Shown here piece after piece: positions 28,895 through 39,925 of a stretch of DNA of 64,000 nucleotides. The stretch's first letter is position 1, and every line of letters begins with the position of its first letter. The position numbers and the translations under genes were made by a program. The notes under the pieces were generated by a model. The model made no database searches. It was not told the DNA's origin and saw only the letters and a program-made list of their open reading frames with translations. Origin of the DNA: Streptomyces sp. BK340 (GTDB lineage Bacteria > Actinomycetota > Actinomycetes > Streptomycetales > Streptomycetaceae); assembly GCF_007827595.1 (NCBI RefSeq), contig NZ_VISR01000021.1:124001-188000 (forward strand). The letters are read 5' to 3'.

Positions 28895-30019
28895 ATGTCC
28901 CCCGAGGTACCACCGCCGACCCGACGCGCCGTGCTGCGGGCGGGAGCCTGCGGCCTGCTGGGCGCCGCGGCCGGCGGCTGCGGGTTCATGCCCGCCAGAA
29001 CGCCCGACGCCCGACAGCTCGCCCCGGTCCGGGCGCGCGTCGACGGCGATCTCATCTACTTCAACTGGGCCGACTTCGTCGACCCGTCCTTGTTCAGGGG
29101 ATTCGAGAAGGAGTACGGCGTCAAGGTCATCCAGTCGAACTTCGACTCGATGGAAGGCATGGTCGCCAAGCTCAACGCCGGCAACCGCTACGACATCGTC
29201 TTCCCCACGGCCAAATGGGCCCAGCGCCTGGTCCGCGGCGGCCGGCTGCGCCGGATCGACCACTCCCAGCTCACCAACGCGCACGCCATATTCGGTGCTT
29301 ACGCGTACTTCGCGGACCCCTGGTACGACCCCGGCTCCGCACACACGGTCCCCTTCACCGCGTACAAGACCGGCATCGGCTGGCGCCGTGACAAGATCGG
29401 CGACCTGACCGGGTCCTGGAAGGACCTGTGGAGCGACAGGGCCAGGGGCAAGGTCTTCCTGCTGGACGACCGCGACGAGGTCCTCGGCATGGGCGCCCTC
29501 GAACTCGGCCTCGGCGTCAGCACCGGGGACCCCGGCGACCTCGACCGCATCACCTCCCTGCTGAGCACGCTTCGCCCGCGGCTGCGCGGCTTCTCCAGCG
29601 ACAGCTACAACAACCTCCTCAACGGCAACGCGGTCATGACCCAGGCCTGGAGCGGTGACATGGCCGCCATGCTCAACCAGGCAAAGGACCCCTCCGTGTT
29701 CGGCTTCGAGGCTCCGCGGGAGGGCACGCCGATCAACTCCGACTGCTACGCCATCCCCTGGAACGCCCCGCATCCCGGCACCGCGATGCTGTTCATCGAC
29801 TACATGCTCCGGCCGGAGAACGTGAAGAAGAACATCGAGTACATCGGCTACCCGATGCCGGTGGCCGGCTCCGAGAGGACCTACGCCGAGCTGGTCAAAC
29901 CGTTCCCCCAGTGCCTCGTCACCGAGGACGACCTGAAGGCGGACCTGTTCTTCCGCAACGGCGGCCGCGCGGCGGAGGACGCCCGCGACACCGCCTGGAC
30001 CCATGTGAAGGCGGGCTGA
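28895..30019 (+). CDS. Polyamine-type ABC transporter substrate-binding lipoprotein (PotD/PotF-like)
   Basis: A 374-residue binding protein. The N-terminus has a twin-arginine pair (residues 10-11, TRRAVLRAG) and a lipobox AAGGC with Cys29, so it is likely a Tat-exported lipoprotein. The mature part starts with DLIYFNWADFVDPSLF, the typical PotD/PotF opening in which aromatic and acidic residues cage the amine. GYPMPV near the C-terminus is also typical. It binds putrescine, spermidine or a related cationic amine. It follows the Rieske gene after 168 bp of non-coding sequence, so it may have its own promoter, and is 3 bp from the permease gene. Confidence 0.92.
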   Translation: MSPEVPPPTRRAVLRAGACGLLGAAAGGCGFMPARTPDARQLAPVRARVDGDLIYFNWADFVDPSLFRGFEKEYGVKVIQSNFDSMEGMVAKLNAGNRYDIVFPTAKWAQRLVRGGRLRRIDHSQLTNAHAIFGAYAYFADPWYDPGSAHTVPFTAYKTGIGWRRDKIGDLTGSWKDLWSDRARGKVFLLDDRDEVLGMGALELGLGVSTGDPGDLDRITSLLSTLRPRLRGFSSDSYNNLLNGNAVMTQAWSGDMAAMLNQAKDPSVFGFEAPREGTPINSDCYAIPWNAPHPGTAMLFIDYMLRPENVKKNIEYIGYPMPVAGSERTYAELVKPFPQCLVTEDDLKADLFFRNGGRAAEDARDTAWTHVKAG

Positions 30020-30022
30020 GCC

Positions 30023-30913
30023 ATGGCACTGCTCCGCCCCTCGCGCACCCGCCGCCGGGACACCACCGGAAACCGGATGTGGGTCTGGTTCATGCTGCCC
30101 GGCACCCTCTGGATGACCGGATTCCTGATCGCCTCGCTGGTCCTGGTCGCGGTCCTCGCGGTCGGTACCACCGACGATCTCGGCAACCCGCGCTTCGGCT
30201 TCGACCTGGCCGGCGTACGTGCCCTCGCCGACCCCGCCTACACCGAGGTCCTGGCCCGCTCGCTCGGCTACGCCCTGCTGACCTGCGCGATCTGCCTGCT
30301 GATCGCCTACCCGGTGGCGTACACCATCGCCCTGCACGGCGGACGGTACAAACACGCGCTGATCGCCGCGATCGTGGTGCCGTTCTTCGCCAACTACCTG
30401 GTGCGGATGTACGGCTGGTCGGTGGTGCTCTCCGACGACGGGCCCGTGCTGCGCGCCCTGCGCGCGGTGGGGCTCGCCGACGGCAGCACGAAGATCCTCA
30501 ACACCGGCGTCGGCGTGGTCGCGGGACTTGTCTACGGCTTCGTCGTCTTCATGATCATCCCGTTGTACGCGGCCCTGGAGCGGCTCGATGTCTCCCTCGT
30601 CGAGGCCGGCCGCGACCTGTACGCCGGCCCGGTCCGCACCTTCCTCTACGTCACCCTGCCCGCCACGAGGCAGGGCGCGGCGGCCGGACTCGTCCTGGTC
30701 TTCCTGCCCGCCATGGGCGACTTCGTCAGCGCACAGCTCATGGGAGGACCGGACCAGATCATGATCGGCAACCTCATCCAGGACAAGTTCTTCCAGGGCC
30801 AGAACTGGCCGCTGGGCTCCGCGCTCACCATGCTGCTGATGCTGGTCCTGCTGATCGGGATGTTCGGCTACCTGCGGCGCACCCGCAAGGACGAGGCGGA
30901 GGCCCGCCGATGA
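30023..30913 (+). CDS. Polyamine-type ABC transporter permease (PotB-like)
   Basis: A 296-residue permease with six membrane helices and the cytoplasmic EAA loop (VSLVEAGRDLYAGPVRTFLYVTLP). It pairs with the next gene to form the transport channel. Its stop overlaps the start of that gene (ATGA), so translation is coupled and subunits would be made in equal amounts. Confidence 0.92.
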   Translation: MALLRPSRTRRRDTTGNRMWVWFMLPGTLWMTGFLIASLVLVAVLAVGTTDDLGNPRFGFDLAGVRALADPAYTEVLARSLGYALLTCAICLLIAYPVAYTIALHGGRYKHALIAAIVVPFFANYLVRMYGWSVVLSDDGPVLRALRAVGLADGSTKILNTGVGVVAGLVYGFVVFMIIPLYAALERLDVSLVEAGRDLYAGPVRTFLYVTLPATRQGAAAGLVLVFLPAMGDFVSAQLMGGPDQIMIGNLIQDKFFQGQNWPLGSALTMLLMLVLLIGMFGYLRRTRKDEAEARR

Positions 30914-31791
30914 CGCTGCTCGAGGTGCCCTCCACCACCGCCCCGGCCCGCCCGGCCGGCCGTGCCCGCAAGCGGCGCGGCCGCGCCGACCGCAGGCCCC
31001 GCATCCTCATCGCCGTCACCGGGCTCTTCTTCGCGCTGCTCTACCTGCCCATCGCCGTCGTGGCCCTGTTCTCGTTCAACTCCAAGAAGTCCCTGACCGT
31101 GTTCGGCGGGTTCAGCCTGCGCTGGTACCGGGCCTTCGTCCACGACGACGTCCTCATCTCGTCGTTGGGCACCAGCCTGCGGATCTCCCTGGTGGCGATG
31201 GCCGGTTCGGTCGTCCTCGGTGTGGCGCTGGCACTCGGCCTGGTCCGCTGCCGCACCCGGCTCGGTTCGCTGGCCGGACTGATCATGCTGGTGCCGCTGA
31301 TCACGCCGGAGATCGTGACGGGCGTGGCGTCCATGCTGCTGTTCAAGGGCCTGGGCGTGGCCCTGTCCACCGGCACGGTGATGCTCGCCGAGATCACCTT
31401 CTCGATCTCCTACGTCACGGTCATCCTCCGGTCCCGGGTCGCCGCGCTGAACCCGGAGGTGGAGGAGGCCGCGATGGACCTCGGCGCCACCCGGTGGCAG
31501 GCGGTACGCCTGGTGACCCTGCCGGCCCTGCTCCCCGCCGTACTGGCCAGCGCCGTGCTGATCTTCGCGCTCGTCTTCGACGACTTCGTCCTCGCCTACT
31601 TCACCACCGGCGTCGACCCCCAGCCGCTGTCGGTGCGCATCTACTCGGCGATCCGCTTCGGGGTGCAGCCCACGATCAACGCGGTCGGCACGCTGATGCT
31701 GGCGGGATCCATCGCCCTGATCGCCCTGGCCCTGTTCATCCCGCGCCTCTTCGGCCGCCGCGGCGGCCTCGACATCCTCTCCGGAGAGTGA
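30910..31791 (+). CDS. Polyamine-type ABC transporter permease (PotC-like)
   Basis: A 293-residue permease with a basic cytoplasmic N-terminal tail and six helices; the EAA loop reads VEEAAMDLGATRWQAVRLVTLP. The start is fixed by the 4-bp overlap with the PotB-like gene. A longer open reading of the same frame from 29911 runs antisense-like through other genes and is not part of it. The ATPase gene starts 3 bp after its stop. Confidence 0.92.
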   Translation: MTLLEVPSTTAPARPAGRARKRRGRADRRPRILIAVTGLFFALLYLPIAVVALFSFNSKKSLTVFGGFSLRWYRAFVHDDVLISSLGTSLRISLVAMAGSVVLGVALALGLVRCRTRLGSLAGLIMLVPLITPEIVTGVASMLLFKGLGVALSTGTVMLAEITFSISYVTVILRSRVAALNPEVEEAAMDLGATRWQAVRLVTLPALLPAVLASAVLIFALVFDDFVLAYFTTGVDPQPLSVRIYSAIRFGVQPTINAVGTLMLAGSIALIALALFIPRLFGRRGGLDILSGE

Positions 31792-31794
31792 TCC

Positions 31795-32865
31795 ATGGAC
31801 GCGACCCCCGCCGTCCGGCTCGACGGCGTCTCCAAGCAGTACGCCGACTCCTACGCCGTCCACCGGCTCGACCTGGACATCGAGTCCGGCCACTTCTTCT
31901 CCCTGCTGGGCCCCTCCGGCTGCGGCAAGACCACCTCCCTGCGCATGATCGGCGGGTTCAGCGACCCCACCGAGGGCTCGGTGCTGCTCGCCGGTGAGGA
32001 CGTGACCGCGCTGCCGCCGAACCGGCGCAACGTCAACACGGTCTTCCAGAGTTACGCGCTGTTCGACCACCTCAGCGTCGCCGACAACGTGGCCTTCGGG
32101 CTGAAACGCAAGGGCGTCGCCAAGGCCGAGATGCGGCAGCGGGTCGGCGAGATGCTGGATCTGGTCCAGCTCGCCGGGCTGGCCGACCGCAGACCCCGTA
32201 CCCTCTCCGGCGGCCAGCGGCAGCGCGTCGCGCTCGCCCGCGCGCTCGTCAACCGTCCCGCCGTCCTGCTCCTCGACGAGCCGCTGGCCGCCCTCGATCT
32301 GAAGCTGCGCCGGCAGATGCAGGTCGAGCTGAAGCAGATCCAGCGCGAGGTCGGCATCACCTTCGTCTTCGTCACGCACGACCAGGACGAGGCGCTGACC
32401 ATGTCCGACCGGATCGCGGTCATGAACGAGGGCCGCATCGAGCAGTGCGGCACCCCCGAGGACGTCTACGAGCACCCCGCCACCCGCTTCGTCGCCTCCT
32501 TCATGGGCACCTCCAACCTGATGACCGGCACCTACCGGGGCGGTGAGGTCGCCCTGGAGCAGGGGCCCGCCCTGCCGGTCGGCGCCCGGAGCGGCATAGC
32601 GGACGGCACCGCCGTCAGCGTGTCCGTGCGCCCGGAGAAGATCTGGCTGTCGGACTTCGAACCGGGCATGTCGATGCTGACCGGCGTCATCCGCGAAACC
32701 GTGTACAGCGGCCCCACCACGACCTATCTGATCGAACTCGCCCCGGGCGTCACGCTGTCCGTGCTGGAGCAGAACACGGCCCGCGCGCGCATGGAGGACC
32801 GCTGGAGCGGCGGCGAGACGGTGGAGTTCGGCTGGCGGCCCGAACACTGCCTGGTCCTGGCCTGA
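31795..32865 (+). CDS. Polyamine-type ABC transporter ATP-binding protein (PotA-like)
   Basis: A 356-residue ATPase with Walker A GPSGCGKTT, Q-loop, signature LSGGQRQRVALARAL, Walker B VLLLDEPLAALD and H-loop VTHDQDEA. The C-terminal about 110 residues form a TOBE domain (VSVRPEKIWL) typical of PotA and MalK. It drives the PotBC-like permease. The position between transporter and catabolic enzymes, all in one direction with short gaps, links uptake to degradation. Confidence 0.93.
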   Translation: MDATPAVRLDGVSKQYADSYAVHRLDLDIESGHFFSLLGPSGCGKTTSLRMIGGFSDPTEGSVLLAGEDVTALPPNRRNVNTVFQSYALFDHLSVADNVAFGLKRKGVAKAEMRQRVGEMLDLVQLAGLADRRPRTLSGGQRQRVALARALVNRPAVLLLDEPLAALDLKLRRQMQVELKQIQREVGITFVFVTHDQDEALTMSDRIAVMNEGRIEQCGTPEDVYEHPATRFVASFMGTSNLMTGTYRGGEVALEQGPALPVGARSGIADGTAVSVSVRPEKIWLSDFEPGMSMLTGVIRETVYSGPTTTYLIELAPGVTLSVLEQNTARARMEDRWSGGETVEFGWRPEHCLVLA

Positions 32866-32898
32866 TCCCCGCCCGCCCCACTCACGAAAGCGAAGCTG

Positions 32899-34212
32899 AT
32901 GCATCACGACGTGATCGTGCTCGGCGCGGGTCTGGCCGGGCTCGCCGCCGCCCGGGACCTGGCGGCCGCCGGCACCGACGTGCTCGTCCTGGAGGCCCGG
33001 GACCGCGTCGGCGGCCGGGTCGAGCAGACCCGCACGCCCGACGGCCGTACCGTCCAGCTGGGCGGCGAAGTGGTCGGCCGCGCCCACACCGCCTATCTGC
33101 AACTCGCCGGGGAACTGGGCCTGGAGCTGGTCGCCAGCTACGTCGCCGAACCCGGCCGTATCACCCGTTCCACACCCGAGGGTCTCTCGGCCGGCGAACC
33201 GCCGCACTGGTTCGGGCCCGGCGACATGACCCGGCACGAGCAGCTCGGCAAGGAGTTCGCCGAACTCGCCGCCACGGTCGACCCCGCAGACCCCTGGTCC
33301 CACCCGGACGCGATCGCCCTGGACCGGCTGTCCGTGGCCGACTGGCTGCGCTCCCGCCACGCCGCACCCGCGGTGGTGCGGCTGTGGGACCTGGGCCAAC
33401 TGGCCCTGGCGGGAGGATCGTACGAGCGCATCTCGCTGCTGGCCGCGCTCCGCAAGAGCGCGGCGGTCCCCGGTACGGGCGACTACGACTACGACAACTG
33501 GGAGGGGCTGCGACTGGCGGCAGGGTCGGCCACCCTCGCCGAGGTCCTGGGCCGCGAGCTGGGGCCGCGCATACGCCTCGGCTCGCCCGTCGCCGCGCTG
33601 GACATACGCCCCGGCCACTGCACGGTACGCCTGGTCACCGGCGAAGTCCTCACCGCGGCGGCCGTGGTGAGTGCCCTGCCGGTGGGACCGCTGCGGTCGG
33701 TCGCGGTCACCGGGGTGAGTGACGCCCGCCTGGCCTCGCTGCACCGGCAACGACAGGCGACGGCCGCGAAGTTCGCCGCCGTGTACGACCGTCCCTTCTG
33801 GCGCGCCGACGGGCTCAACGGCCTGTCCGAGGCCGAGGGGGTTCTGGGCAGCACCTGGCCGCAGAACGAGGGCGTGCTGTCGGCGCTGGTCCCGCCCGAG
33901 CGCTACGGCGTCCTGCTCGGCACCCCGCCCCATCTGCGCACGCCCGAACTGCTCGCCGAGATGGCCGTGATGTTCGGCGAGGAGGCGCTGCGGCCGACCG
34001 CCTGCCATCTGCGGCTGTGGGGCACCGACCCGTGGACGCAGGGCTACGTCACCCAGTGGCCGCCGGGCGAGGTCATGGCGGTCGGCCCGCTGCACGGCAC
34101 CCACGAGCCGCCGTTCTACGTCTGCGGCTCCGACCAGTGGGTCGCCGGGTACATGGAGGGCGCCGTCCGCACCGGGCGCGCCGCCGCCGAGGAGGTGCTG
34201 CGCCGTGGCTGA
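32899..34212 (+). CDS. Flavin-dependent monoamine/polyamine oxidase
   Basis: A 437-residue FAD enzyme of the monoamine oxidase family. The dinucleotide-binding motif VIVLGAGLAGLAAARDL is at the N-terminus, with EARDRVGGRVE as the second family signature and a C-terminal FAD contact (YVCGSDQWVAGYMEGAVRTG). It would oxidise an amine to an imine that hydrolyses to an aldehyde, with release of H2O2 and ammonia or a smaller amine. Putrescine oxidase is the nearest well-known bacterial type. Its end overlaps the start of the aldehyde dehydrogenase gene by 8 bp, which suggests direct hand-over of the aldehyde. Confidence 0.92.
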   Translation: MHHDVIVLGAGLAGLAAARDLAAAGTDVLVLEARDRVGGRVEQTRTPDGRTVQLGGEVVGRAHTAYLQLAGELGLELVASYVAEPGRITRSTPEGLSAGEPPHWFGPGDMTRHEQLGKEFAELAATVDPADPWSHPDAIALDRLSVADWLRSRHAAPAVVRLWDLGQLALAGGSYERISLLAALRKSAAVPGTGDYDYDNWEGLRLAAGSATLAEVLGRELGPRIRLGSPVAALDIRPGHCTVRLVTGEVLTAAAVVSALPVGPLRSVAVTGVSDARLASLHRQRQATAAKFAAVYDRPFWRADGLNGLSEAEGVLGSTWPQNEGVLSALVPPERYGVLLGTPPHLRTPELLAEMAVMFGEEALRPTACHLRLWGTDPWTQGYVTQWPPGEVMAVGPLHGTHEPPFYVCGSDQWVAGYMEGAVRTGRAAAEEVLRRG

Positions 34213-35626
34213 CCACATCCGTCTCAACCACGTCGACGGCAAGGAGGTATCGGCCGCCTCCGGTGCCACCGTGCCGCTGGTCGAGCCGGCCACCGGACTC
34301 CTCCACGGCACGGCACCGCTCTCCGGCCGCGTGGACGTGGACCTGGCCTGCCGGGCGGCCGAGCGGGCCCTGCCCGGCTGGTCGGCCACGACTCCGGCAC
34401 AGCGGCAGACCGCGCTGCTGCGCATCGCCGACGCCCTGGAGCGGGAGGCGGACGCGCTGGCGGACGCCGAGGTGACCGACACCGGCAAACCGCGCGCGCT
34501 CTTCCTGGCGGACGAACTGCCCGCGGTCCTGGACGTGTTGCGGTACTTCGCCGGGGCCGCCCGGAACCTGCCGGGCGCCGCCGCGGCCGAGTACACGCCG
34601 GGCCGTACCTCCGTCCTGCGGCGCGAACCGGTCGGCGTCTGCGCGCAGATCACCCCGTGGAACTACCCGCTGATGATGGCCGTCTGGAAGGTCGCCCCCG
34701 CGCTGGCCGCCGGCAACACCGTCGTCCTGAAACCGTCCGACACCACGCCGTCGTCGGCCACGCTCCTCGCCCGGCTGGCCGCCGAGCATCTGCCGCCCGG
34801 AGTGCTCAACGTGGTGTGCGGCGACCGCGACACCGGGCGCGCCCTCGTGGCCCACCCGGACGTGCGGCTCGTCGCCGTCACCGGCAGCGTCCGCGCCGGA
34901 CAGGAGATCGCCGCGGCGGCGGCCGCCGACCTCAAGCGGCTGCACCTCGAACTCGGAGGCAACGCTCCGGTGTTGGTCCACGACGACGCCGATCTCGACG
35001 ACGCGGTCGCGCAGTTGTCATCGCTGGCCTTCTACAACGCGGGGCAGGACTGCACTGCCGCCACCCGGATCCTCGTCCACCGCCGTGTGTACGAGATCTT
35101 CCTGGACGCCTTCGCCGACCGGGCCGCGCGGCTGCTGCCCGGCGGCCCGGGCGACGCGCGCGCCGACTTCGGCCCGCTCGCGAACGCCGCCCAGCTCGCC
35201 TCCGTGCGCGGCCTGCTGGAGCGGCTCCCGGACCACGCCGAGGTGGTCACCGGTGGCGGTGCCCTCGACCGTCCGGGCTACTTCCATGAGGCCACGGTGG
35301 TCGCCGGGGCCCGGCAGGAGGACGAGATCGTGCGCAGCGAGGTGTTCGGCCCGGTCGTCACCGTGCAGCCGTTCAGTGAGGAGTCCGAGGCTTTCCGTAT
35401 GGCGAACGCCGTTCCCCAGGGACTGGCCGCGAGTGTCTGGACCCGCGACCACGACCGGGCGATGCGGGCGAGCCGGGCACTGCACACCGGCATCGTCTGG
35501 GTCAACACCCATGGCACGACAGTCTCGGAGATGCCACACGGCGGTGTGCGCCACTCCGGTTACGGCAGCGACCTCTCTCTGACCGGCCTGCTCGACTACA
35601 CACAGGTCAAGCACGTCATGTTGTGA
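34205..35626 (+). CDS. Aldehyde dehydrogenase (aminobutyraldehyde / betaine-aldehyde type)
   Basis: A 473-residue NAD(P)-dependent dehydrogenase. Visible: ITPWNYPLMMAVWKVAPALAA, LELGGNAPVLV with the catalytic Glu, and the Cys in YNAGQDCTAATR. The GQDCT form is common in gamma-aminobutyraldehyde and betaine-aldehyde dehydrogenases. It would turn the amine-oxidase product into an omega-amino acid such as 4-aminobutyrate. GTG at 34205 overlaps the oxidase gene by 8 bp. It is the last gene of the rightward operon. Confidence 0.92.
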   Translation: MADHIRLNHVDGKEVSAASGATVPLVEPATGLLHGTAPLSGRVDVDLACRAAERALPGWSATTPAQRQTALLRIADALEREADALADAEVTDTGKPRALFLADELPAVLDVLRYFAGAARNLPGAAAAEYTPGRTSVLRREPVGVCAQITPWNYPLMMAVWKVAPALAAGNTVVLKPSDTTPSSATLLARLAAEHLPPGVLNVVCGDRDTGRALVAHPDVRLVAVTGSVRAGQEIAAAAAADLKRLHLELGGNAPVLVHDDADLDDAVAQLSSLAFYNAGQDCTAATRILVHRRVYEIFLDAFADRAARLLPGGPGDARADFGPLANAAQLASVRGLLERLPDHAEVVTGGGALDRPGYFHEATVVAGARQEDEIVRSEVFGPVVTVQPFSEESEAFRMANAVPQGLAASVWTRDHDRAMRASRALHTGIVWVNTHGTTVSEMPHGGVRHSGYGSDLSLTGLLDYTQVKHVML

Positions 35627-35782
35627 GGGTGGACAGGTGCCTGCCGAACGCCTCAGTTTCCTACCGGAGGCATCAGGATTCCCACACGACTGTGGCCGGA
35701 TTGCGCATCTGACGGGTGTTCGAACATCGCGATACTCAGGGCTGGGCAATCCGCCCCAAACTCCCGCCTTCGGAGGCCACTG

Positions 35783-35983
35783 ATGCCCCAGACCAGTGTT
35801 CAGACCGCGGCAGTGCTCGAAGCCTGGCTGTCCGGTGCCGAGAGCGCCTACGGCCAGCTCAACCCAGCCGGGCCGCTGTACGTCGGCGGCGCCGCCGCCG
35901 AGGCCGCGCTCACCGACCCGAGCGACTCCCTGTACGGCTTCTGTTCCAGCCCGAGCGGGTCGCACGGCAGCTGGTGCTGCTGA
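35783..35983 (+). CDS. Class II lanthipeptide precursor peptide (lanA)
   Basis: A 66-residue peptide directly before a LanM synthetase gene. GGAGG lies 6 nt before the ATG. The first about 50 residues form an acidic, Ala-rich leader with a double-glycine at 35-36 (YVGGAAAE). The tail from residue 54 is CSSPSGSHGSWCC: three Cys (54, 65, 66) and five Ser (55, 56, 58, 60, 63), enough for up to three lanthionine rings. If cleavage occurs after GG36, the core would be 30 residues and also hold Thr44, Ser47 and Ser49. I do not recognise this core from a known lanthipeptide. The closing WCC with adjacent Cys is unusual. Confidence 0.85.
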   Translation: MPQTSVQTAAVLEAWLSGAESAYGQLNPAGPLYVGGAAAEAALTDPSDSLYGFCSSPSGSHGSWCC

Positions 35984-36010
35984 TCGTCCACGGTGCCTTC
36001 GGGCCCCGGC

Positions 36011-36043
36011 CGGGGAACCGCGCGCTGCTCGCGCGGTTCCCCG
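36011..36043 (+). terminator. Intercistronic hairpin between precursor and synthetase
   Basis: A perfect 14-bp stem (36011-36024 with 36030-36043; arm CGGGGAACCGCGCG) and a 5-nt loop CTGCT. It lies 27 bp after the precursor stop and 36 bp before the LanM start. It can work as a partial terminator or 3' stabiliser so that precursor is made in excess of enzyme, as in other lantibiotic operons. Confidence 0.8.
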
Positions 36044-36078
36044 CGTCTCGTTCGGTCGACTGGAAGAGAGGGTGGAAG

Positions 36079-38901
36079 GTGAGCGGATCGGCGCCGGACG
36101 GCGTGGACGAGTCCGAGTGGTTCGCCGGGCCTGTACGGAGCATGGCTCGGCCGTGGCGGGACGAGTTGGCAGGGCGTCTGGCGGCCGTGACCGCGCTGGA
36201 CCGCAACGAGCGGGACGTGGTGCTGGAGGCGGGTCACACCGCCCTGGTCAGGTCGTTGCACGCCAAACTCTCCCGCCTCCTCCTGGTCGAACTCCACGCG
36301 CTGCGCCTGGCCGGCGGCGCCGGTCCGGACGCCGGGGGCACGGCCGACACGAGGACGTGGGCCGCGTTCGTCGAGCAGGCCGGTGCGGAGGGCTATCTCG
36401 ACAAGCTGGCCGACCGGTACCCGTGTGCCGGCCGGCGGGTCGCCTCGGTGGCACGGATGTCGGTCGCGGCCGCGGCCGGGTTCGCGCAGCGGCTCGCCGC
36501 GGACCGGGCACTGCTGCACCCGCTGCTCGGGGGTCCGGCTGGGCCGATGCACGCCGTGACGTTCGGGGCGGGCGACAGCCACCGGGGCGGTCTGACGGTG
36601 AGCCGGGTCGACTTCGCCGGCGGCAGCGTCATGTACAAACCCCGGCCGTCCGAGGCGGACGTGGCTCTGGGCGCGCTGTTGACGGAGCTGTTCTCCGACT
36701 TCCCCGGCGCCCCGGCACCGGACGAACGGATCCGCGTGCCAGGGACGCTGGCGCGCGAGGGCTACGGCTGGGCCGAGTTCGTCCACCACCGGTACTGCGC
36801 GGACGACGCCGAACTCGCCTCTTTCTACCGCAACATGGGGCACTGGCTGGCCGTGCTGCGTTTCACCGGCGGCACCGACATGCATGCCGAGAACATGATC
36901 GCCGCAGGTCCGGTACCGGTGATCGTGGACGCCGAGACGCTCTTCGACTCCCCCGCGCCCTTCCCGCCCAGTGGCCGGGGTGACGCGGTGGACGTGGCAG
37001 CGGCGGCCATCCGCCGGACGGTGCTGCGCACCGGGCTGCTGCCCGTGCGCGGCACCGGGTTCGCGCTCGGCGGCGTGGACATCTCCGGGGTGGGGGCGCT
37101 GCCCGGCCAGCAGCCGCTGATCCCGAACCCGGTGATCGCGGACGGCGGCACCGCGGCGGCCCGCTTCCAGGTGGACCTGGTGGCGATGCCCACCGCCGGA
37201 AATCACCCGAGCCCGACCCCCGTGCTGAGCACGTACTGGGACCGGATCCTGGCCGGCTTCCGCGAGATGACCGCGCACCTGCTCCGGCCCGGCGCGGATC
37301 CGTACCGTCTGCTGGCCCGCTTCGAAGGCGCCCGGGCACGCCGGATCCTGCGACCGACCCAGGCGTACGTCGACATCGGCCGCATGCTGTGGCATCCGGC
37401 GTCGTTGCACGACGAGGCCTCGGCCGTCGAGCGGGCCCGGGACATCCTGCTGCGCAACGCCGAGGTGCTGCCCGGTGCGCCGACCGAGCACACGGCCGTC
37501 GACGGCGAGATCGCGGACCTCCTGGCCGGCGACGTGCCGATGTTCGGCTTCACCGTGGACGAGGCCGCCGTACGGAACACGGTCGAGGACTGGCGCACCG
37601 CCGACTTCGCGCTGGAGGAGTCGGTGATCCAGGACGCGCTGGTGGGCGCGTACCTGAACGAGCGGTCGCTGCCGGCGCGGGTGCAGGCCGCCGCCCATGA
37701 GCCGCACGCCCGTGACCGGGAGCGGCGCCGCCGGGAGCAGGCCGCGCGGATGGTGCGGCGGCTGTGCGACGGGGCGGTGCGCGGTGAGGACGGTACGGCG
37801 ACCTGGATCAGCCCGGTCTTCACCCCTGCCGGATGGTCCATCAGGGTGCTGCCCGCCGACCTGTACACCGGGCAGGGCGGGGTGGTGCTGACGCTCGCGG
37901 AGTACGCGGCCGAGGTACGGGCCGGGCGGGCGGACGAGGTGCCCGGCGTCACCGAGACGTTCGACGGCGCGCTGCGCGTGCTGATGAGTACCGAGGACCG
38001 GACCCCCACCCCGTCGGCCGGGGCGTTCAGCGGCGCCGCGTCGCAGGTGTGGACGTGGCTGGCGTTGCACCGGGTGCTGGGTGAGAGCCGGCTGCTGGAG
38101 CGGGCCGCCGCGAGGGCGGTGCTGCTGGAGGGCCGTCTGGTCGAGGACGACGTCGAGGTGGATCTCCTCAACGGGGCGGCCGGTGGCATCGTCCCGCTGC
38201 TCAACCTGGCCGCGGCGACCGGGCAGGACCGCTGGCTCGCCGCGGCGGCGCACATCGGCCGCCGGCTGACGGGGCTGGCCACGGTCGACGCGAGCGGTGC
38301 CCGCTGGACGACCCGGCTCAACCCGGAGGGCATCGGCGGCTTCGCCCACGGAGCGACCGGCATCGGCTGGGCGCTGTCCCGGCTCGCCCTGAGCGAAGCC
38401 GGTTCCGCGGCCGAGCGCCACGACTGGGCCCGCCTGGCCGAACTGGCCTTCGCCTACCAGGAGTCCCTCTACCAGCCGAGCCACGGCAACTGGCTCGACG
38501 TCCGCATCGGCGCCGAGGAGGACTTCTTCACCAGCTGGTGCCACGGCAGCGCGGGCATCGGGACCGGCATGCTCGACCTGCACCGGCGCACCGGCGATCC
38601 GGCCCACCTCGACATGGCCCGCCGGGCCGCACAGGCCTGTGCGGCGGAGGGCTTCGGCTGGAGCCACACGCTGTGCCACGGCGATCTCGGCCTCTGGCAG
38701 TTCCTCACGTCCATGAACGTCGGCGACCCCGCCGACCTGGACGGCGAGATACTCACCAGCCTCGAACAACGCGGCCCGGTCGGCGGCCTGGCCCGCGAGG
38801 CGTTCTCCCCGAGCCTCATGTCGGGCCTCGCAGGAGTCGTCCACACGCTCCTGCGGATGCACGGGTCGGCATCCTTGCCGGATCCCCTGGTCCTCGACTG
38901 A
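36079..38901 (+). CDS. Class II lanthionine synthetase LanM
   Basis: A 940-residue bifunctional enzyme that dehydrates Ser/Thr in the precursor and then closes thioether rings. The N-terminal dehydratase (kinase-like, DUF4135) shows MYKPRP near residue 185, GGTDMHAEN near 265 and VDAETLF near 284, matching the Lys, Asp/His/Asn and Asp/Glu of the phosphorylation and elimination site. The C-terminal LanC-like cyclase (from about 600) has the zinc ligands in WCHGSAG (near 820) and LCHGDLG (near 865). GTG at 36079 follows GAGAGG by 7 nt; the frame is open to 35716 but that part overlaps the precursor gene in another frame. No transporter, leader peptidase or immunity gene follows. Confidence 0.95.
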   Translation: MSGSAPDGVDESEWFAGPVRSMARPWRDELAGRLAAVTALDRNERDVVLEAGHTALVRSLHAKLSRLLLVELHALRLAGGAGPDAGGTADTRTWAAFVEQAGAEGYLDKLADRYPCAGRRVASVARMSVAAAAGFAQRLAADRALLHPLLGGPAGPMHAVTFGAGDSHRGGLTVSRVDFAGGSVMYKPRPSEADVALGALLTELFSDFPGAPAPDERIRVPGTLAREGYGWAEFVHHRYCADDAELASFYRNMGHWLAVLRFTGGTDMHAENMIAAGPVPVIVDAETLFDSPAPFPPSGRGDAVDVAAAAIRRTVLRTGLLPVRGTGFALGGVDISGVGALPGQQPLIPNPVIADGGTAAARFQVDLVAMPTAGNHPSPTPVLSTYWDRILAGFREMTAHLLRPGADPYRLLARFEGARARRILRPTQAYVDIGRMLWHPASLHDEASAVERARDILLRNAEVLPGAPTEHTAVDGEIADLLAGDVPMFGFTVDEAAVRNTVEDWRTADFALEESVIQDALVGAYLNERSLPARVQAAAHEPHARDRERRRREQAARMVRRLCDGAVRGEDGTATWISPVFTPAGWSIRVLPADLYTGQGGVVLTLAEYAAEVRAGRADEVPGVTETFDGALRVLMSTEDRTPTPSAGAFSGAASQVWTWLALHRVLGESRLLERAAARAVLLEGRLVEDDVEVDLLNGAAGGIVPLLNLAAATGQDRWLAAAAHIGRRLTGLATVDASGARWTTRLNPEGIGGFAHGATGIGWALSRLALSEAGSAAERHDWARLAELAFAYQESLYQPSHGNWLDVRIGAEEDFFTSWCHGSAGIGTGMLDLHRRTGDPAHLDMARRAAQACAAEGFGWSHTLCHGDLGLWQFLTSMNVGDPADLDGEILTSLEQRGPVGGLAREAFSPSLMSGLAGVVHTLLRMHGSASLPDPLVLD

Positions 38902-38928
38902 TCCAGGCGGGTCAATCGAGGACCAGGG
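38885..38928. terminator. Bidirectional terminator formed by the ends of two genes
   Basis: A 17-bp stem with one mismatch (38885-38901 and 38912-38928) and a 10-nt loop. The arms contain the last codons and the stop codons of both convergent genes, which is why LanM and its neighbour both end in LVLD. Confidence 0.85.
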
Positions 38929-39925
38929 CCAGCGCCTCCTTCAGGTTGTGCTCGGCGATGTCCGCCATCGCCGCCCGGTGGGGGAAGTCCCCGTCGAGCA
39001 GCCGCAGCGGACCCGTCGTGAGGGAGAGACGCCGGGCGAGCGTGTAGAGCGCGAGGCGGTTCTCGTCCAGGCCGTCCACCGCCAGTGGCCGGTAGGCGTC
39101 GTGCAGGCGGATCCGCAGGAAGACGTGCTCCCACTCGACGTCGAAGTACATCGAGCCCTCGATGTCGATCGCCACGGGGTACCCGGCCGCGTCGACCAGC
39201 ACGTGGTCGGGCCCGAGTTCGCCGTGCAGGACCGCGTACTCGGCGCGGGGCCGCACAGCCGCCGCGAGATCCGCCAGCCGCTCCTCCAGCCGGCCGCGGG
39301 CCTCGGCGATCCGCGGATCGCGCGACGCGGCCTCGGCGAGGTCCCGCAGCGCGCGGTCCAGGACGACGTCCTCGCACGACGTCCCCTGTGACGTGCCGCC
39401 GCCGTCGACCACGGCCACCTTGCCGTACGTGGACGCCCGGTGCCGCCCCATCGCCTCCAGCGCCTCTCCGAGCCGCTCCATGACGGGGGCGGCGGCGCTC
39501 GGGTCCCGGGCGAGCAGGTGCTCCAGACTCTCGCCCGGGATGTCCTCGACGATCGCGAGTTCGGCGGGACCGTGGGTGCCCTCGCGGTCGACGAGACGGA
39601 CGGCCGGGACGCGGACGCCGAGCGCGTCCAGCCGGGCGTGGGCGGCCTCGAAGAGGTCGAGCCCGAGGCCGGGCGAGAACGGGTCGGTGAGGTCGTCGTC
39701 GCCCTCGGCCGCCGGCCAGTGGTTCTCGGCGTCGTGCCAGAGGTAGGCGATCGCCGTCGTCGCGTCGTCCAGCACCAGGCGGTACACGCCCTTCCTGCTG
39801 CCGCCCGCGACCCGCTCGACCGCCTCCAGCCGCCGCCCGCCGCCCAGCGCGGCCCGGGCCGCCCCCGCCAACTGCTCCCGCGCCACTGCCCTGCCTGCCA
39901 CGTCCCGCACCCGCCCCTCCGTCAC
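38912..39925 (-). CDS. Phosphotransferase-fold (APH-like) protein
   Basis: A 337-residue protein of the aminoglycoside phosphotransferase/choline kinase fold. The catalytic loop reads LHGELGPDHVLVD (the His-Gly-Asp-type loop with Glu and Asp in place of the usual HGDLxxxN) and the following metal loop is AIDIEGSMYFD. The N-lobe has GGSRKGVYRLVLD. The altered loop (D replaced by E, N by D/H) means that catalysis is doubtful or the substrate is unusual. It is convergent with LanM and could be a self-protection or tailoring enzyme, or simply unrelated. The start is uncertain: GTG at 39925 is used; other in-frame GTGs at 39910 and 39901 are near a GAGGGG. Confidence 0.82.
   Translation of the reverse strand: MTEGRVRDVAGRAVAREQLAGAARAALGGGRRLEAVERVAGGSRKGVYRLVLDDATTAIAYLWHDAENHWPAAEGDDDLTDPFSPGLGLDLFEAAHARLDALGVRVPAVRLVDREGTHGPAELAIVEDIPGESLEHLLARDPSAAAPVMERLGEALEAMGRHRASTYGKVAVVDGGGTSQGTSCEDVVLDRALRDLAEAASRDPRIAEARGRLEERLADLAAAVRPRAEYAVLHGELGPDHVLVDAAGYPVAIDIEGSMYFDVEWEHVFLRIRLHDAYRPLAVDGLDENRLALYTLARRLSLTTGPLRLLDGDFPHRAAMADIAEHNLKEALALVLD

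Follow-up and report, generated by a model that had tools for sequence, protein, structure and literature searches.

The stretch of DNA analyzed here, called the window throughout, comprises 64,000 nucleotides (nt) of Streptomyces sp. BK340 (contig NZ_VISR01000021.1, positions 124,001 to 188,000). It carries a short gene for a lanthipeptide precursor and, beginning 95 nt beyond the stop codon of that gene and on the same strand, a gene for a LanM, the class II lanthipeptide synthetase. The precursor open reading frame (ORF) is preceded by a CGGAGG ribosome-binding site, and its product has Gly-Gly at residues 35 and 36 and ends in Cys-Cys. An interpretation made earlier from the letters of the window alone (the sequence-only reading) had described a 66-residue precursor with these signals and a C-terminal tail, and all of them were found as claimed. 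The features of the unit and of related loci (numbered L; their genomes, G) are collected in Table 1.

Table 1. Positions of the two-gene unit, its parts, and adjoining genes in distant relatives (window coordinates unless a locus is named)
Feature	Position	Strand	Basis or remark
Upstream control region, conserved in group A: TGTGGCCGGATT (35691-35702), TCTGACG (35708-35714), 17 nt, ATACTC (35732-35737), CtGGGCaATCCg, CGGAGG	35682-35782	+	Column conservation, homology start
DUF6229 lanthipeptide precursor, 66 amino acids	35783-35983	+	PF19740 match, translation, alignments
Tail CSSPSGSHGSWCC (residues 54-66), conserved and probably the ring-bearing core; Ser60-Cys65 and Ser63-Cys66 predicted to form rings, third with Cys54	35942-35980	+	dN/dS, tail pattern
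G+C-rich hairpin with 14-bp perfect stem between precursor and LanM genes, possible attenuator	36011-36043	+	Fold z of -2.1 in the window
LanM, class II lanthipeptide synthetase, 940 amino acids, GTG start	36079-38901	+	Domain and subfamily profiles, alignments
ABC transporter homologues of group C	L137:12982-14895; L087:13228-15141; L088:13239-15139	-	L088 copy in two pieces
Kutzneria genes after the unit: ABC transporter, AMP-binding/carrier protein with hexapeptide match, M1 peptidase	L084:12784-19901		

The precursor matched the Pfam family PF19740 (DUF6229) with an E value of 4.1e-21 and 75.1 bits, well above the curated cut-off of 25, and the eight other family members scanned (8/8) passed the same cut-off. 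The block NPAGPLYVGG occupies residues 27 to 36 and is followed in the window peptide by AAAEAALTDPSD. Among 54 members of the family, which represent 48 distinct precursor sequences, LY[VI]GG was kept in 53; the Kutzneria precursor has VGE in place of VGG. A search for relatives of the precursor among PDB sequences gave five chance-like matches (best E = 1.2), and the family profile found no second precursor in the same loci at E < 0.1. DUF6229 proteins have already been published as class II lanthipeptide precursors (PMC9576775 and PMC11451712). Thus, the sequence-only reading, which could match the core to no described family, holds at most for that core and not for the precursor as a whole. 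The core family is apparently undescribed in the open-access main texts searched, and the parts covered of two further articles (PMC6509333 and PMC7268733) contained neither a ring pairing nor a mention of this precursor family.

The LanM showed DUF4135 (1.8e-90) and LANC_like (4.1e-39) domains and scored 497.5 bits against the TIGR03897 LanM model, whose cut-off is 304. Most of the protein aligned with the solved LicM2, and there was further alignment with the dehydratase part of CylM. The dehydratase residues D166/H168, D267/H269/N272, D284, and R425/T427 showed no variation among the 51 aligned LanMs, nor did the zinc ligands C821, C866, and H867 among the 48 that reach that far; their positions come from the alignment, and we take their roles to be those of the corresponding CylM residues. 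The profiles and alignments bore out the earlier description of a complete LanM with intact dehydratase and zinc motifs 95 bp downstream, as well as the assignment to LanM-dependent class II. With dehydratase and LanC-like cyclase domains, intact residues, and an adjoining precursor bearing Ser, Thr, and Cys, this is a genuine class II lanthipeptide locus, and the LanM is predicted to form thioether rings on its precursor. LanM-like proteins with nonbiosynthetic roles do exist, such as the Agr effector CA_C0082 of Clostridium (PMC10301443), and the LanM might likewise serve as a regulator or act on another substrate, leaving the peptide unmodified. We regard this as very improbable: CA_C0082 lacks the conserved catalytic residues and the zinc motif (PMC10301443), whereas here the former are invariant in 51/51 sequences and the latter in 48/48, and the LanM is strictly paired with a Cys- and Ser-rich peptide under constraint.

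Strong precursor homologues (E ≤ 2e-9) were present in 24 of 392 Streptomyces genomes, and in a sample of the phylum the window's genome alone, among 396, passed the Pfam cut-off. A scan of GTDB contigs with two short peptide patterns, which is not exhaustive, gave 50 loci, 45 from Streptomyces and five from other genera (two from Amycolatopsis and one each from Kitasatospora, Wenjunlia, and Kutzneria). Relatives also lie on two Embleya megaplasmids; occurrence outside Actinomycetota is taken from the literature only. In 50 of 50 fetched loci a LanM gene lay directly 3' of the precursor gene, although the LanMs of L044 and L050 run off contig ends and that of L078 is in pieces. Conversely, close LanM homologues (E ≤ 1e-120) occurred in 14 of 295 Streptomyces genomes, among which not every precursor-positive genome need be represented, and all 14 were among the 24 precursor-positive genomes. 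The sequence-only reading had asked whether the small gene is missing beside close LanM homologues, and neither the 14/14 nor the 50/50 count refuted it.

The limits of the unit were examined by comparing 20 kb of the window with 52 loci by BLASTN. Homology extended from a median position of 35690 to a median position of 38901, the LanM stop, and a separate homologous stretch was absent in 44 of the 52 loci. In L035, L036, L037, and L040, the match continued into the upstream aldehyde dehydrogenase gene. Besides LanM, no neighbor gene family occurred in more than 8 of 51 loci, and no recurrent protease, exporter, or immunity gene was seen with a gene caller that is crude (it relies on codon G+C bias) and may let small or low-bias genes escape. 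The left flanks fell into 34 contexts among 48 loci and the right flanks into 35 contexts among 48 loci, with 3 of the 51 loci left out on each side for want of enough flank. Contexts differed even between LanMs of >80% identity, and some close pairs shared their flanks. No cleanly empty site corresponding to the 3.2-kb unit was found; in a relative without the unit (G001, locus L107), the end of the aldehyde dehydrogenase gene joins sequence matching the window from 60477 onward, so that about 24.8 kb (window 35633-60476) differ. Because the pairing holds in 50 of 50 loci, no neighbor recurs, homology ends with the pair, and the flanks vary, the precursor and LanM form an isolated pair that has an upstream control region of its own and lacks a dedicated protease or exporter nearby. 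The PF19740 match, the recurrence of homologues, LanM as sole recurrent neighbor, and the selection on the core described below place the locus far beyond chance.

About 100 bp upstream of the precursor were conserved in 34 loci of group A, the window's group of 35 sequences (the promoter alignment left out L061). This region contains TCTGACG-N17-ATACTC together with the TGTGGCCGGATT block and is probably the unit's own promoter, as judged from its sequence. The block lies upstream of the promoter-like pair and may possibly be a regulator site. A loose version of TGTGGCCGGATT was found upstream in 30 of 51 loci and in 29 of 2,040 random stretches, with a TGGCC pattern that was written post hoc.

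The descent of the unit was assessed in 24 genomes by comparing a LanM tree, built from N-terminal fragments, with an rpoB tree. The two trees had 7 of 21 splits in common, and 6 of 12 well-supported LanM splits conflicted with a well-supported rpoB split. Some horizontal transfer of the unit is likely, and we take the two genes for a portable unit whose transmission is at least in part independent of the neighborhood. Alternatively, the pair may be old and vertically inherited, with its neighbors shuffled in the fast-rearranging chromosomes of Streptomyces. Turnover of flanks over time could mimic mobility, and the splits common to both trees, the other 6 of 12 well-supported LanM splits that met no well-supported rpoB conflict, and the flanks shared by some close pairs all speak for descent without mobility. 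We nevertheless consider such descent rather unlikely in view of the six opposed splits, the presence of the precursor in only 24 of 392 genomes, the near-identical tails in Amycolatopsis, and the different contexts at >80% LanM identity.

Selection on the precursor was estimated as the ratio of nonsynonymous to synonymous substitution rates (dN/dS), taken as a plain average over pairs rather than from a tree. In group A, dN/dS was 0.34 for residues 1 to 25, 0.005 for NPAGPLYVGG, 0.09 for residues 37 to 53, and 0.06 for the tail of residues 54 to 66; the core is under strong purifying selection in this group. The exact tail CSSPSGSHGSWCC was found in 24 of the 54 sequences, and 13 more had one or two differences. 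Of the two Amycolatopsis loci, one has exactly the window tail, and a single Ser-to-Thr replacement sets the other apart. All 54 members end in [ST][GA]S-x4-CC, where the Kitasatospora tail has Ala in place of Gly59. A stricter pattern, [ST]GSxx[ST][YWF]CC, fits 48 of the 54, the window included, and 0.1 to 0.2% of shuffled cores with CC fixed, a figure to be read with the post hoc choice of the pattern in mind.

This tail invites comparison with the epidermin group of lanthipeptides. Epidermin and gallidermin are made by class I enzymes, LanB and LanC, with a LanD flavoprotein decarboxylase in the cluster. In mutacin 1140, the C-terminal rings pair residues 16 with 21 and 19 with 22. Epidermin (IASKFICTPGCAKTGSFNSYCC) has the tail TGSFNSYCC (PMC10006061); in mutacin 1140, Thr14 becomes dehydrobutyrine, and Ser16, Ser19, Cys21, and Cys22 become ring residues, Cys22 in the form of S-aminovinylcysteine (PMC5864910). 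The stricter pattern is common to epidermin, gallidermin, mutacin 1140, and 48/54 members of the window family; the tail thus resembles that of epidermin and mutacin, which also counts against a locus without described kin. By analogy, the likeness suggests interlocked rings between Ser60 and Cys65 and between Ser63 and Cys66. Unlike the epidermin group, the window family has a LanM, lacks a CTPGC-type segment, and stays below the cut-off of the Pfam Gallidermin family (PF02052). No LanD-type decarboxylase was found among the recurrent neighbors in 51 loci; the genome has five flavoprotein-domain matches, none on the window's contig (C21).

The closest characterized relatives by leader are the rhodanocins, a name proposed for the Dyella DUF6229 lanthipeptide whose precursor, modified by its LanM in Escherichia coli, showed four dehydrations and three rings (PMC9576775). 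In Lysobacter, DUF6229 was present in 21 of 27 unique class II precursors, and the precursors form six families (PMC11451712). These systems and the window unit are alike in the PF19740 leader, class II, a possible Gly-Gly motif, and three ring Cys residues (PMC9576775). However, the 23-residue AspN fragment of the rhodanocin has its ring Cys at 8, 11, and 23 and the rings Thr6-Cys11, Cys8-Ser14, and Thr12-Cys23 (PMC9576775), whereas the window precursor, compared with the description in that text, has Cys at 54, 65, and 66 with a terminal Cys-Cys and does not show this ring spacing. With the window unit, the DUF6229 lanthipeptides come to include a coherent family of actinomycetes in which the ring-bearing tail is different. 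Another class II product with three rings, formed with 3 dehydrations and analyzed after GluC digestion, is LanII-56 of Streptomyces sp. NRRL S-350 (PMC9576775, Table 1); it was compared by description and not by sequence.

The Gly-Gly of the leader raises the possibility of a conventional lantibiotic, with a PCAT or LanT protein encoded elsewhere in the genome removing the leader after Gly36 and exporting the peptide. LY[VI]GG in 53 of 54 members is consistent with this, and the window's genome does encode two C39 domain proteins, both on other contigs (L135 on contig C12 and L136 on contig C11 of genome G000). The sequence-only reading was right that no LanT or C39 protease accompanies the pair, since none recurred among the neighbors either. 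Maturation by C39 or PCAT proteins was considered as an association across genomes and rejected: C39 domains were detected in 17 of 24 carriers of the unit and 16 of 24 noncarriers. Because carriers show no excess of C39 proteins, the Gly-Gly has no link to such a protease, and it is probably not a C39 site. Furthermore, C39 was undetectable in 7 of the 24 carriers, including a single-contig assembly (G290), the Kutzneria precursor has VGE instead of VGG, and the protease LahT150 did not cut the possible double-Gly motif of the Dyella DUF6229 precursor (PMC9576775). We therefore hold the conventional route to be improbable. Beside one of the C39 proteins, a 71-residue peptide with a Gly-Gly leader was recognized by eye (L135:10404-10619).

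Exporters and other proteases were then considered. When PCAT and ABC (ATP-binding cassette) transporter ORFs of the window's genome were compared with 51 loci by tblastn, five loci matched (L084, L071, L049, L035, and the window). In the window and in L035, the matching ORF belongs to the upstream transport operon, as its ATPase; one further ORF of unassigned kind matched three others. Next to the LanM gene, a homologous ABC transporter gene is present in the three group C loci (L137 and, from Embleya, L087 and L088), where it is convergent, and in Kutzneria (L084), where both genes have the same orientation. Over the stretches that match, identity to the L137 protein ranges from 50%, in Kutzneria, to 85%; the ABC domain was assigned by profile for L084, and the transporters do not recur as neighbors in groups A and B. 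Full-length homologues of the transporter occur elsewhere in the window's genome, the best 42% identical, among 125 ABC matches. In Kutzneria, an M1 peptidase gene lies 5.8 kb past the LanM, with the ABC transporter and the AMP-binding/carrier protein between them; this single case possibly represents a fuller ancestral or a derived cluster. The window's genome contains 12 M1 matches, the best 56% identical to the Kutzneria protein.

Class III and IV lanthipeptides use LanKC and LanL synthetases, unlike the window unit with its class II LanM. Some actinobacterial members of these classes depend on unclustered proteases (AplP-like and SflL, with MicP2 for lipolanthines), and they resemble the window in a locus without a protease and an M1 peptidase elsewhere in the genome (PMC10885120). 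Among the M1 enzymes described for these peptides, one cuts after acidic residues and at Ala-Ala (PMC10885120). An unrelated precursor of class III could not be processed by an AplP-like enzyme (PMC8960859). A role of an M1 enzyme in leader removal is a candidate function here.

Altogether, we consider it likely that the locus is a stand-alone two-gene class II lanthipeptide unit with interlocked, epidermin-like C-terminal rings and host-encoded maturation. The LanM would bind the DUF6229-type leader, dehydrate Ser residues of the C-terminal tail, and close thioether rings with Cys54, Cys65, and Cys66. The C-terminal rings Ser60-Cys65 and Ser63-Cys66 would interlock as in epidermin, with Ser58 perhaps left as dehydroalanine, and the first ring would use Cys54, perhaps in the reverse direction. 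The calculated [M+H]+ is 6591.98 for the unmodified 66-residue peptide and 6537.95, 6519.94, or 6501.93 after three, four, or five dehydrations; for the AspN fragment of residues 48 to 66 with three dehydrations, it is 1925.70. Host proteins encoded elsewhere would remove the leader and export the product. For leader removal, the leading candidate is an M1 metallopeptidase of the AplP type that would cut in the Ala-Ala/acidic stretch past Gly36, and for export it is an ABC transporter of the kind adjoining LanM in the distant relatives. In genome G000, the foremost M1 candidate is encoded at C14:148132-149418 and an ABC transporter homologue at C1:242635-244437. The sequences themselves show the precursor family, the intact LanM, its strict pairing with the precursor, the isolation of the two genes, the purifying selection, and the tail pattern, whereas ring topology, protease, export, and function are predictions.

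Several observations weigh against this explanation. The product of the unit is itself a prediction from sequence. M1 peptidases (12) and ABC transporters (125) are so numerous in the genome that the presence of either counts for little. The resemblance to epidermin is short and was noticed post hoc, and PF02052 matched only one of eight relatives (L074 of group B; aligned with the tail, E = 0.56, 11 bits against a cut-off of 21) and did not match the window precursor up to E = 1. The 12 group B sequences have a far less constrained tail (dN/dS, 0.35). The stricter tail pattern is broken in 6 of 54 members, and Ser or Thr is absent at position 63 in 5 of 54 (Ile in Wenjunlia; Arg in Kutzneria and three group C members), so a ring between 63 and 66 cannot be universal. 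All of these members retain [ST][GA]S-x4-CC, as do the other members (54/54 in total), which agrees with a different topology in which Ser/Thr58 and Ser60 close both C-terminal rings, either nested (58-66 and 60-65) or crossed, and the likeness at Ser63 reflects convergent composition. This topology is a possible but somewhat less than even prospect in our view, as Ser or Thr at 63 is kept in 49 of 54 members and the stricter pattern, although chosen post hoc, is rare in the shuffled cores with CC fixed (0.1 to 0.2%). The epidermin-like pairing remains our preferred reading.

Because the group A core is nearly invariant and no immunity gene recurs, a conserved role, for example in signaling or morphogenesis, is favored over that of an antibiotic; from the conservation of the core we infer a specific target or a signaling function and not an antibiotic arms race. 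An antibiotic to which the host encodes tolerance is a possible alternative, and group B is under weaker constraint. A more far-reaching proposal is that the pair is a mobile class II unit that evolved the epidermin bicycle independently and makes a near-invariant product without dedicated export or immunity, acting as a conserved signal, a morphogen, or a metal- or redox-active peptide and not as an antibiotic; taken as a whole, this is unlikely. What is most surprising about the locus is that the pair is isolated and that its tail resembles that of epidermin; neither point had been made in the sequence-only reading. The isolation suggests that a precursor and its synthetase, with no other genes attached, can be maintained as a class II lanthipeptide unit in a wide range of chromosomal settings. 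Two questions follow: whether LanM and LanB/LanC enzymes converged on one motif of interlocked rings, and by what route class II precursors mature when they are unclustered.

The intergenic hairpin was compared with shuffled sequences across loci. The fold z was below -2 in 24 of 49 testable regions, with a mean of -2.0, and 2 of the 51 regions were left out as too short; the hairpin is a tendency, not a rule. Upstream of the unit, window positions 28895 to 35626 hold a polyamine uptake/degradation-like operon with a solute-binding protein, a flavin amine oxidase, and an aminobutyraldehyde dehydrogenase identified by profile and permeases and an ATPase recognized by eye. Downstream, a convergent phosphotransferase-like gene (APH family, 1e-9; window 38912-39925, minus strand) ends about 10 nt past the LanM stop and is found beside the unit in 2 of 51 loci. 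In the group B-like loci L075, L079, and L080, the unit lies directly upstream of a shared gene row, in which ribosomal proteins were recognized by eye in L080 (about 13.9 to 20.2 kb); a ribosomal protein cluster is an unusual site for a specialized metabolite.

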